Both the position numbers and the translations under genes were made by a program. Source: Pontibacter sp. Tf4 (lineage in GTDB: Bacteria > Bacteroidota > Bacteroidia > Cytophagales > Hymenobacteraceae). From it: a stretch of DNA of 64,000 nucleotides. The stretch is from the NCBI RefSeq assembly GCF_014212495.1, contig NZ_JACKZC010000005.1:124001-188000 (forward strand), given 5' to 3'. Every line of letters begins with the position of its first letter. Position 1 is the stretch's first letter. Below are positions 48,639 through 52,768 of the stretch, piece by piece. The notes under the pieces were generated by a model, which saw only the letters and a program-made list of their open reading frames with translations, searched no databases and was not told the DNA's origin.

Positions 48639-49574
48639 ATGAAAAACCGCCTTGCACTGATTGACATGGGTACTAATACATTTCACTTGCTGGTAACGGA
48701 AGTGAATGAGCAGGGGCAGTTGCACGACCTATATAAAACCAAAGTACCGGTTCGTTTAGGCCAGGGCGGCATCAGCAACGGCAACATCGCGCCCGAAGCC
48801 TACGAGCGTGCCCTTAAAACGCTGAAAGATTTCCGGAAGGTGATTGATGAGCATGGTGCAGAAACGGTTCGGGCAATGGCTACCAGCATGGTGCGCAACG
48901 CAGCCAACGGCGACGATTTTGTAAAGGACATCTACAAGCAGACCGACATTGAAGTAGAAGTAATAGACGGTGCCCGCGAAGCCGAACTGATCTACTACGG
49001 CGTACGCTTCGCAGGTGTGCTGAACGAGCAGACAGCCCTTATCATGGATATTGGCGGCGGCAGCGTGGAGTTTATAGTTTGCAACAACCAGGAGATCTTC
49101 TGGAAACGCAGCTTCGAGGTAGGTGCCCAGCGCCTGATGGACCAGTTCTTCACCGCAGACCCGATACCAGCCGAGAGTATAGCCGCCGAAAAAACTTATT
49201 TAGCTGAGAAACTACAACCACTCTCCGAAGCGGTAGCAACCTATAAACCAACTATATTGGTAGGCTCATCCGGTACCTTCGATACGCTTTGCGACATAGA
49301 TGCCCTCCGCAAAGGCGACACCTCCCGTCAGCAAACTATTCCACCGGCATCGGAGCTGACGATGGATGATTTTTATAGTATCTACAAGGACCTGCTTCAC
49401 AAAACCCACGACGAGCGCTTAGCCATCCCCGGCATGCTGGAAATGCGTGTGGATATGATTCTGCTGGCAACTATACTGGTAGACTTTGTGCTGGAGAACT
49501 ATAAGCTAAAAGAGATCCGGGTATCGTCGTATGCGCTGAAGGAAGGCGTGTTGCAGCAAATGCTGGGGAAGTAG
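48639..49574 (+). CDS. Ppx/GppA-family exopolyphosphatase
   Basis: A 311-residue phosphatase of the ASKHA fold. Phosphate-1 motif ALIDMGTNTFHLLV opens the protein and phosphate-2 ALIMDIGGGSVEF follows near residue 135. It covers only domains I and II, shorter than E. coli PPX, as is usual in this phylum. It would remove phosphate from polyphosphate or from pppGpp. The two activities cannot be separated by sequence alone. No Ppk gene is nearby. Confidence 0.9.
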   Translation: MKNRLALIDMGTNTFHLLVTEVNEQGQLHDLYKTKVPVRLGQGGISNGNIAPEAYERALKTLKDFRKVIDEHGAETVRAMATSMVRNAANGDDFVKDIYKQTDIEVEVIDGAREAELIYYGVRFAGVLNEQTALIMDIGGGSVEFIVCNNQEIFWKRSFEVGAQRLMDQFFTADPIPAESIAAEKTYLAEKLQPLSEAVATYKPTILVGSSGTFDTLCDIDALRKGDTSRQQTIPPASELTMDDFYSIYKDLLHKTHDERLAIPGMLEMRVDMILLATILVDFVLENYKLKEIRVSSYALKEGVLQQMLGK

Positions 49575-50340
49575 TCAGAATCAGGATTTTCAGGATTCGG
49601 GGATTTTCAGGATTTGGTCTTTTGCTATAGTTTAGGCTAAAGTTCTATAGTTACTATACAGGTTTGGCTGACGTGAGCGCCCACGCTCGTGACTTAGGAT
49701 GGTGTTGAGTCTCCCGACTCAACTGGCCCGAAAGGGACAGGCTTGCATTAAGCGCTGGCTATAGTTCTATAGTTAACGTTTTAACCCACCCCTACCCCTC
49801 CCGAGAGGGGAATTTCGGCCCTTACTATAGTTTGAGCTATAGTTCTATAGCTACAGCCCACGAACAGGACAGGTTTACCTGTCCCTACTGAACTATAGCC
49901 ACGAGAAAGTAATCGGTCTGCTATAGCAAAGAGCAAGCACAACAACTATAGCTAAGGCAGAAGCTATCGAATTGTTATCAGTCTTTGGGTTGAGCGCCTT
50001 GTAGATTTCCGGTGCCTGCAGGGCATTGCGAGGCACGAGCAAAGGAAATGTACACCGCGCGATGCCCGAAGACGGGGCCTCCCGGCCCGGGAGGGAGCCA
50101 ACTAAACTATAAAACAGTAGGCTCTTAGAGCTCTCAGGATTAGAAGTAGCTATGGAATAGATGGCTTGTTTCCAGCAGTAGGCAAAGCCAACTATAGCAC
50201 GATAGACCTTGAGCTATAGTCTGAGATAGATTTCTCACTTTGTTCGAAATGACAGACAAGAAACCATAAGACATATAAGATGTCTCGCAGCTACGCTGGC
50301 TCTTTTCGACTCGCGTCTACAGATTGCTCGGGATGACAGC
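49575..50340. repeat. Large intergenic repeat island
   Basis: No gene. It contains CAGGATT repeats (49577-49612), hairpins GTTGAGTC-TCCC-GACTCAAC (49704-49723) and GGACAGGT-TT-ACCTGTCC (49867-49884), the element shared with 45872-45906 (49781-49815), twelve CTATAG copies between 49625 and 50219, a structured block (49994-50104) and a tail with TTCGAAATGACAG and GATGACAG-like repeats (50230-50340). All are non-coding. Confidence 0.82.
49994..50104. other. Candidate structured RNA or palindromic element with possible pseudoknot
   Basis: Nested stems ATTTCC/GGAAAT (50005-50010 with 50044-50049) and GTGCCT/AGGCAC (50012-50017 with 50031-50036) enclose the loop GCAGGGCATTGCG. GGGCATTGCG in that loop (50021-50030) can pair with CGCGATGCCC (50058-50067) over 10 bp with one GU, making a pseudoknot-like fold. 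A further stem CCTCCCGG-C-CCGGGAGG follows (50078-50094). It has no open frame. Whether it is an RNA or a DNA repeat is not known. Confidence 0.4.
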
Positions 50341-50345
50341 AAACA

Positions 50346-50373
50346 AAAAAGGCAGGTTATTCACCTGCCTTTT
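50346..50373 (-). terminator. Terminator of the TPR-like protein gene
   Basis: Stem AAAAGGCAGGT/ACCTGCCTTTT (50347-50357 with 50363-50373), with a T run on the minus strand, next to the gene's stop at 50384. Confidence 0.88.
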
Positions 50374-50383
50374 ACATTCAAAT

Positions 50384-52768
50384 TTATCCTTTTGCTAAAC
50401 GCTTTCTTTCCTTCTCATAAGCCTTTCGCAGCTTCTTCAGATCGCGGTTGTTATTGGTGTGCTTCATGGCTAAAGCCTCGGCATCATCTTTTAAACCTAA
50501 CTGCACGTCCTGAGATGCCAGTTGTTTGCCTAACTGCTCCTGCACGTCTTTGGTCTTGCGGTTCTTGTAGTCCTTCTGCAAAAGTATAGTTAATAAACTG
50601 ATCGCAACTTCCTCCTCGCCCAGGCTGGCATAGTATTGCACCACTTCAGCCGTGAACGGCAGTTTTGGAGTTTCTTTGGCATAGTTGTACAGCGAAATAT
50701 GATCCAGCCCGAAACGGTTCACTTCGTAGGCTTTGTAATGTTTCTCGGCCTGGTTGTAGGTTTGCAGGGCTTCGGCGTAGCGGCTGCTGGCAACAAAACG
50801 ATTTACATCCTCCAGCATTTGCTGGTAACGCACAGCAGCCAATATTGCTTCGCGGCCATCTTTTGCAGTAAAATCGGCTAACTGACACACGCTGTTATCG
50901 CCGGCTACTGCCAGGGCAGCTAAGTAGGCTTTATCGGCAGCTAAGTATTGTTTGCTGCGGGCCAGCTCTTTTGCCTTCTGTACATGGGCATCGTACGCGT
51001 TTTGCGCGTTCTGGCACTCCTGGGTTACAATGCGGTCGCGGAGCAGGTTGTATTTGCTGATCACCTCTTTATCCTGCGCTAAACCATAGCGGCCCTGCAT
51101 GGCAACAGCTTTTGATGCCGTAGCGCGTGCATCTGGCAACCTGTTCTGCATGGCCTGCTCGTAGCCCGCCTGCAAATCTGCCAACAGCACTGGTTTTGCG
51201 GCTTTCTGAGCCAAGGTAGTCAGTTCGGTTACGGGCTTAAAAGTATAGCTGTCTTCCAGGTCCAGGGCAGCATCGAACTGGCTAAGCGCAGCACCATAGT
51301 TTTTGCTGTTCAGGTAGCTTTTGCCTTTGTCGATGTGCTCTACATAATAAGTATATTTTACCTGGTTCTGTAGTTCAATGGCTTCGGTTGGTTGTGGCAA
51401 TACATCGCGGTAGTCACTCTGGAAACGCAGGGCATCTTCAGCAAGCCTGTCTGCCCTGGCAATGTTGTTACGGGTCAGTTCCCGTTTTCCTTCTGCTACC
51501 ATGTTCTTATAGATACCTGTTGCGGCACGGCCTTCGCCTTCGCGCAGGGCTGGCAGGTTACAGCCAAGTCCGCCTACGTTGTTGCACATGTCGCGGGCAG
51601 TATTAAAAGCCTGCAGTGCCGCATTGTAGTCGCCGCGGTTGGTCAGGTTGTGGCCCTGTGTGATGTGCGCGTTATAGATGTCGTATGCCAAAACCTGTAG
51701 CATCTGGCGGGTTTCCGGGTCAATGCGCATCCCTGTCAGCACGCTTAAGGTACGGGCAGTTGCCTCTTTCAGGTAGCCGTTCGCAAAATCCAGGCGGGCC
51801 AGTTGCAGGTGCGATGGAGCAAACTTAGGGTTCACTTCCAGCGATTTCACAAAATAAGCCTTCGCTGCATTAGCGTTGCCTGATGTAACCATGCTCATGC
51901 CTTTGTTAAAGAACTGCAGGTCCATGGTGCTGAGGGCATAGTCTACGGCGCGGCGGCGCTCCTGTAGCTGGCGGTTCAGGTCAGTCATTTTCTGGGTAAG
52001 CTGTTGCGGGTCGTACTGGCGCAGGTTCAGCTTTTCTCTGAAATTCTGATCTTTGATGCGCGCATACATATCCTCCATCTGGCGCAGGTTGTGGTTGTGC
52101 TGGCTGATGCGGTCTACATCGTCCGGTTGAATGTGGTTGATATCCTGCAGGGCGCGGCTTATAGTTGCTTCGGCCGCATAATAATCGCGTACCAGTTCGC
52201 GGTATCTTTTAAAGCGTGCAACACTCTCTGTTGTATAAACAAGCTCCAACGGCTCCACCACCAAACTATAGTTCGGGTTGGCAGTGGTATCTGGTATGGT
52301 TACATCCAGCAGCGTAACGCCTTCTTTTTTGAAAGCAATGTTGCTCAGGTTAAACACCTGCAACTCTTTCTTCTTCCCGTCCAGCAACTTTACTTTCGCA
52401 TTTAGCTTTTCGGGTAGCAGTACATCCTCCACCCCAAAGTCTTTGTAAGTCACATCGCTGTTCACACCTATTTTAGAGAGCTGTACTTTCAGTTGCAGTT
52501 TATCGCCGGCATCGGCAATACGGGCCTGTTGCTCCAGGCGCACCACAAATTCCGGTGTACGACTGGTTGGCCGCCCGCCACCTCTTTTTACATCGCCTTC
52601 TTTTAATAAGCTGATGATGGAATTAATGTGCGTCTGGCTGCTGCTACCGGTTGTGCTATACTTTAGCAGGTAAGCTTCCGGGGTGGTTTCTTCGAAAATG
52701 AGTTTGGTCTGTGCCTGTGCAACAAAGGCGGTCAGCAACAGGAAAGAAGAAAGTATAGCTCGTATCAT
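50384..52768 (-). CDS. Large exported TPR-like repeat protein
   Basis: A 794-residue exported protein (signal ending AQAQ, about residue 20). Residues 20-190 are a beta-rich domain of unknown type. The rest is helical, with repeated TPR-like units such as ANAAKAYFVKSLEVNPKFAP, GDYNAALQAFNTARDM, KNYGAALSQFDAALDLED and SRYAEALQTYNQAEKHY. It ends with a Lys/Arg-rich tail. Such proteins are usually scaffolds for envelope complexes; the partner is unknown. It is a single gene with its own terminator. Confidence 0.8.
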   Translation of the reverse strand: MIRAILSSFLLLTAFVAQAQTKLIFEETTPEAYLLKYSTTGSSSQTHINSIISLLKEGDVKRGGGRPTSRTPEFVVRLEQQARIADAGDKLQLKVQLSKIGVNSDVTYKDFGVEDVLLPEKLNAKVKLLDGKKKELQVFNLSNIAFKKEGVTLLDVTIPDTTANPNYSLVVEPLELVYTTESVARFKRYRELVRDYYAAEATISRALQDINHIQPDDVDRISQHNHNLRQMEDMYARIKDQNFREKLNLRQYDPQQLTQKMTDLNRQLQERRRAVDYALSTMDLQFFNKGMSMVTSGNANAAKAYFVKSLEVNPKFAPSHLQLARLDFANGYLKEATARTLSVLTGMRIDPETRQMLQVLAYDIYNAHITQGHNLTNRGDYNAALQAFNTARDMCNNVGGLGCNLPALREGEGRAATGIYKNMVAEGKRELTRNNIARADRLAEDALRFQSDYRDVLPQPTEAIELQNQVKYTYYVEHIDKGKSYLNSKNYGAALSQFDAALDLEDSYTFKPVTELTTLAQKAAKPVLLADLQAGYEQAMQNRLPDARATASKAVAMQGRYGLAQDKEVISKYNLLRDRIVTQECQNAQNAYDAHVQKAKELARSKQYLAADKAYLAALAVAGDNSVCQLADFTAKDGREAILAAVRYQQMLEDVNRFVASSRYAEALQTYNQAEKHYKAYEVNRFGLDHISLYNYAKETPKLPFTAEVVQYYASLGEEEVAISLLTILLQKDYKNRKTKDVQEQLGKQLASQDVQLGLKDDAEALAMKHTNNNRDLKKLRKAYEKERKRLAKG

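Follow-up and report, generated by a model that had tools for sequence, protein, structure and literature searches.

Positions 49979-50102 of the window (the whole 64,000-nt stretch of DNA that was analysed) may encode one copy of a structured RNA family that is borne, mostly on the sense strand, by a non-autonomous dispersed element in the gaps behind genes. We put the probability of this reading at about 0.5, and the odds on the mechanism of the element are likewise about even. In this mechanism, the RNA copy would be the conserved heart of the element, situated behind genes and mostly on their sense strand. It would be made as RNA by read-through or from a promoter of its own, and its fold would be recognised by a protein encoded elsewhere. 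Copies would have spread within each lineage, and gene conversion of short tracts or some other kind of mosaic copying would keep them similar to one another. The RNA family is previously unlisted, with no match in Rfam 15. The features of the locus are collected in Table 1.

Table 1. Features of the RNA copy, its array and the neighbouring genes in the window (pairing values are for alignment A4).
Feature	Position	Strand	Details
Conserved RNA core (P1, P2, P3, P4, P5 and 3' pseudoknot)	49979..50102	+	model R1, 137.4 bits, this copy being one of the 33 sequences used to build R1
P1, 5' strand	49981..49989	+	partner 50065-50073; 95.7% of cells paired, 8/9 pairs double-changed
P1, 3' strand	50065..50073	+
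P2, 5' strand	49994..50010 (49994-49997, 50000-50003, 50005-50010)	+	88.8% paired, 13/14 pairs double-changed
P2, 3' strand	50044..50060 (50044-50049, 50051-50054, 50057-50060)	+
P3 hairpin	50013..50025 (50013-50016 with 50022-50025)	+	91.8% paired, 3/4 pairs double-changed
P4 hairpin	50026..50042 (50026-50029 with 50039-50042)	+	86.7% paired, 3/4 pairs double-changed
P5 hairpin	50076..50087 (50076-50079 with 50084-50087)	+	98.5% paired, 2/4 pairs double-changed
3' pseudoknot	50081..50095 (P5 loop 50081-50083 with 50093-50095)	+	90.7% paired, 2/3 pairs double-changed
Array enclosing the RNA	49577..50239	+	modules A, B, F, RNA and H, linked by CTATAGTT words
Upstream gene	48639..49574	+	co-directional with the RNA; presumably Ppx/GppA-like
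Downstream gene	50384..52768	-	convergent; 794 aa

As predicted from aligned copies, the architecture of the RNA is near certain: helix P1 encloses P2, P2 bears the two hairpins P3 and P4, and P5 follows, its loop pairing with the 3' tail. The fold is maintained by natural selection. A 231-nt stretch around the block folded better than all 200 of its dinucleotide shuffles (z = -3.61). Alignment A1 (a first set of 33, chosen among loci collected by DNA similarity only and aligned by sequence only) had changes on both sides in 18 of 40 pairs and a covariation of 0.142, against 0.078 when shuffled. Left unaided on the first alignment, RNAalifold returned nearly the same nested helices (34 pairs, 14 of them double-changed). 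Alignments A3 and A4 were drawn from 47 loci (50 matches) picked for diversity. On A4, whose 50 sequences were aligned by sequence alone but had been gathered with a model already holding the same fold, 91.7% of cells were paired, 31 of 38 pairs had changed on both sides, and covariation reached 0.454; the 500 shuffles gave 0.160, and slid partners no more than 0.151. A model-fitted alignment, which leans towards the model, gave 95.7% pairing and a covariation of 0.518.

The 3' pseudoknot was left unpaired in every model, yet it paired as listed above on A4, where it occurs as C-G (32) or G-C (10) at one pair and as G-C (24), C-G (23) or U-A (1) at another. On A1, with columns taken from the window copy, only 62.1% of its cells were paired, since copy types differ in the register of the tail; in the window copy itself an additional base precedes the tail, which puts its 3' pseudoknot one column out of register in A4. 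Both the length and the letters of the P3 loop vary. The dinucleotides G14-A15 and G83-A84, which flank P2, are almost invariant and, we infer, form tandem G-A pairs. Short inserts resembling GGGGGTAGGGGCCCTCGATAAGG or its reverse complement were seen within the RNA core of one locus (L026) and in four orthologous gaps (G012, G030, G074 and G145); in G012 each arm of P1 carries such an insert, so that the two could pair with each other.

The earlier note on this DNA had proposed a two-level hairpin with a 10-bp pseudoknot. Its motifs are all present: ATTTCC (50005-50010) with GGAAAT (50044-50049), GTGCCT (50012-50017) with AGGCAC (50031-50036), and GGGCATTGCG (50021-50030), which is complementary, with one G-U, to CGCGATGCCC (50058-50067) across 27 intervening bases. 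The outer stem ATTTCC/GGAAAT is a genuine part of helix P2, and the GC-rich hairpin that it saw downstream is P5. The other two proposed pairings, GTGCCT/AGGCAC as inner stem and the 10-bp pseudoknot, were not supported. Together they had a covariation on A4 of 0.081, against 0.084 in shuffles, and 60.8% pairing, against 59.6% (24 of 500 shuffles reached 60.8%). They did out-pair slid versions (at most 41.1%), as is expected of conserved letters. In L012, L013 and L076, TTGC has become GCCC jointly with a change of GCAA to GGGC just downstream, within P4, while CGCGATGCCC is unchanged. The statement that a chance 10-base match was improbable was too strong: a 10-bp helix (at most one G-U, 111 nt) arose in 13 of 400 shuffles, and such a helix, found in 7 of 160 sampled window stretches, is not very rare. 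The earlier fold can form in the window copy, the single-sequence minimum-energy fold of which includes part of the inner stem, and this in part explains its appeal. Given covariation over the 50 sequences no better than shuffles, we regard that fold as almost certainly wrong, and the 10-bp pseudoknot was rejected; the idea of a pseudoknot holds only for the different, short one at the 3' end.

The note's broader impression, of a structured RNA or a mobile palindromic element that it did not recognise as a known riboswitch or sRNA, agrees in part with what we found, a structured RNA-like block within a dispersed repeat. Searched with Rfam 15 covariance models at E <= 10, the core drew no match; the eight matches of these models in the window all lay at 50337-50400 on the minus strand, and none of nine matches in 14 further loci lay over the core. 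In the element's own genome a first look gave 137 candidates, and all 40 of those scored matched (E <= 2.6e-61, identity 87-100%), giving a copy number of at least 40. A DNA-level search of a sample of relatives matched 29 of 59 genomes; the genus, counting the own genome, supplied 37 of the 59 and 28 of the 29. The search of other Hymenobacteraceae genomes that the note had called for showed the block to be repeated there too: covariance model R1, at E <= 0.01, found the element in 68 of 200 genomes of the family (4 of 6 genera) and in 43 of 50 genomes of the genus, the weakest carrier (G033) having a single match at E 0.004. Three other genera supplied twenty selected carriers, each with 2-144 matches at E <= 1e-3, at most 150 places being scored per genome; the richest genome counted, G083, had the 144. 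Outside the family, R1 matched 3 of 395 genomes of the phylum (own genome included), and a wider model, R2, matched 38 of 390 genomes of the order and 9 of its 129 genera (family included). In each of eleven chosen genomes, 1-11 places matched at E <= 0.01. The element thus occurs in several families but is rare outside its own. A pattern scan of named genomes returned 28 stretches, all from Pontibacter qinzhouensis; its spacer was one base too long and it is not a census.

Phage and plasmid collections held no match to the element and viral contigs no exact match to the pattern, and a phage or plasmid origin was rejected on these grounds. Some individual loci have features of their own. In L099, L120, L121 and L169 pairs of copies lie head-to-head, about 190-500 nt apart. 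Five of the copies listed for G075 are no more than about 900 bases from the start of a contig, which would fit an assembly broken by long, nearly identical repeats. A distant relative of the RNA (L226, in G600) lies between two genes, which we take to be LexA-like and nucleotidyltransferase-like, amid what are presumably defence genes.

In its own genome the RNA lies in intergenic arrays of hairpin modules linked by the same words as in the window. Across 40 such arrays (that of the window and 39 further loci), modules may be missing but are seldom rearranged: the order A, B, C, D, E, F or f, RNA, G, H is kept with the exception of two pairs (L041 and L057), an order that is description only, the modules having been picked by eye from the same arrays. 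Modules A to H have a uniform orientation; module K of L050, which is not among them, is reversed. The whole array was considered as the spreading unit and rejected: pairwise distances showed no correlation between neighbouring segments, not even between the core's two halves (Mantel r -0.10 to 0.07).

Placement relative to genes was scored in five sets comprising 159 loci, genes being taken as the longest ORFs, so that some calls may be wrong: 72 loci were tandem sense, 27 tandem antisense, 53 convergent and 7 divergent, and the preceding gene was co-directional with the RNA in 125. By set, and in the order convergent, tandem sense, tandem antisense and divergent, the counts were 18, 17, 5 and 0 for own copies (n = 40); 13, 15, 5 and 4 for other members of the genus; 10, 12, 2 and 0 for genus g24; 9, 7, 9 and 3 for genus g27; and 3, 21, 6 and 0 for thirty low-copy loci judged by eye, among which four orthologous g11 loci and two orthologous g19 loci were each counted. 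The sets for the other members of the genus, g24 and g27 comprised selected loci, with one g1 and one g24 copy excluded for want of a flanking ORF. With 7 sense and 9 antisense, g27 has no preference for the sense strand. One locus, L005, sits after an apparent tRNA gene. In the window itself a terminator-like hairpin flanked by A and T runs was seen by eye at 50346-50373, between the two convergent genes, and CTATAG occurs 109 times in the whole window against 13.4 expected from shuffles, also within genes; we take it to resemble a highly iterated palindrome.

This placement at gene ends is also what a host mRNA 3'-end element would show, one serving stability, processing or read-through control that would have been copied to many sites behind genes and made uniform by gene conversion. 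The low-copy genera lend it further support, as there the element often fills short co-directional gaps (in L260 its neighbours are 12 and 7 nt away). However, arrays in the window's lineage often begin downstream of what looks like the terminator hairpin of the preceding gene (by eye, with no count), so the RNA would lie outside the upstream mRNA. Moreover, 7 of 50 genomes of the genus are without the element, and the low-copy loci have no neighbouring gene in common except at orthologous sites. We consider an mRNA 3'-end element unlikely. A partner encoded beside the low-copy copies was rejected, as the neighbours differ apart from orthologous sites.

The paired cells of the RNA are also asymmetric between strands. 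Read on the RNA strand in another model-fitted alignment, A2 (79 rows, 78 distinct), G-U cells outnumber A-C cells by 106 to 1, or by 56 to 1 without a single mostly-U-G pair; the lowest 17 of the 96 matches in A2, which are antisense mirror hits, were excluded from this count. A preference for G-T over A-C would be expected equally of single-stranded DNA, and the selected molecule could be a folded DNA strand, the element then being a composite MITE or resembling a REP, with a RAYT (Y1/HUH transposase) to move it. Its own genome has three Y1_Tnp matches, the arrays are shared with other hairpin modules, and within the genus a Y1 transposase (E <= 1e-6) was found in 35 of 43 element carriers versus 1 of 7 non-carriers, an association that may arise if lineages rich in one repeat are rich in others. 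Against this, three carriers (G032, G095 and G108) have no Y1 at that cut-off, yet 17 of 17 scored places in them match the element. None of 20 RAYT loci holds the element within about 2 kb of the gene; in L168 and L169, two longer loci selected for having the element nearby, it lies about 4.5 kb from the RAYT. Most of the 16 of these 20 loci whose flanks were inspected by eye are flanked by short palindromes unlike the RNA element, and two own-genome RAYT loci that were inspected contain other repeats. Several RAYT-like subfamilies, many with flanking palindromes of their own, occur in the family (L168-L187).

As described in PMC3733652, REPs are high-copy, extragenic, hairpin-forming sequences, thought to be miniature elements. 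The present repeats share these traits, and the window genome has RAYT-like genes, but a REP is a palindrome of 20-40 bp (PMC3733652), whereas the RNA element is a far more complex fold of 125 nt, multi-helix and pseudoknotted, with wide covariation. An element moved by a RAYT is, in our judgement, an improbable explanation. Bacterial stem-loop containing repeat families, described in PMC2267715 as non-coding, foldable and claimed to be transcribed, are similar in being repeated non-coding sequences able to fold; the main text of that paper contains none of the terms Bacteroid-, Cytophaga and covariation. Among the papers returned by literature searches, no title or abstract opening describes the present repeat.

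Searches for a partner protein among Y1/RAYT, TnpB, reverse transcriptase and neighbouring genes found none. The TnpB domain PF07282 is absent from the own genome and occurs in 2 of 32 genomes at E <= 1e-5; the reverse transcriptase domain RVT_1 has no candidate in the own genome and is present in 13 of 32; and HEARO (RF02033) exceeded its cut-off in none of 59 genomes, with one weak match (21.7 bits) in G025. HEARO, TnpB and reverse transcriptase were rejected as partners, none having been found in the own genome. The HEARO/IscB omega RNA is a structured RNA tied to mobility and is sometimes multi-copy, and omega-type guide RNAs can occur apart from their protein. An RNA of about 125 nt that is pseudoknotted and dispersed might accordingly be a stand-alone guide-type RNA of a TnpB- or IscB-like nuclease. 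The scarcity of PF07282 and RF02033 weighs against this, as does the lack of a variable guide-like end (the flanks are alignable between own copies), and we hold it to be very improbable. Group II introns and other retroelement RNAs are also structured and spreading, and some insert in sense behind terminators; they differ in that the own genome has no reverse transcriptase domain and the core no Rfam match.

The history of the copies bears on how the dispersed element would spread. Among 16 species with the window's gene pair (G026, in which the two genes lie apart, was excluded), the element is present in 9, absent in 6 and, by eye, a remnant in one (G022), and its edges are not clean. The orthologous gaps compared contained no clean insertion with an empty site and no target duplication. 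The closest relatives of the window copy are other copies in the own genome (median identity 0.907); to the 8 copies that other species have at the orthologous site its identity is 0.63-0.78. G030 and G074 have the same inherited copy at this gene pair, so copies also persist without moving. Among own copies, r2 between shared variants drops from 0.30 to 0.03 by 20-60 bp (floor 0.026), and all four combinations are found in 1509 of 1891 site pairs. This loss of linkage is consistent with frequent conversion of short tracts or with copying that yields mosaics; recurrent mutation of the same sites is another way in which linkage could be lowered. An RNA-centred mobile element of a new kind, in which a putative protein would recognise and copy the folded RNA in a host without reverse transcriptase or TnpB, and template switching or micro-conversion would yield mosaic daughters, would account for the lack of linkage between shared variants more than 20-60 bp apart. 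We advance this version only tentatively and think it rather doubtful.

With strong covariation, dozens of copies in many genomes, an occurrence in several families and no entry in Rfam 15, the RNA would be a sizeable unlisted class. Because so many divergent copies exist, the fold is already open to testing, and the carrier and non-carrier species within one genus offer a natural comparison for its partner and function.
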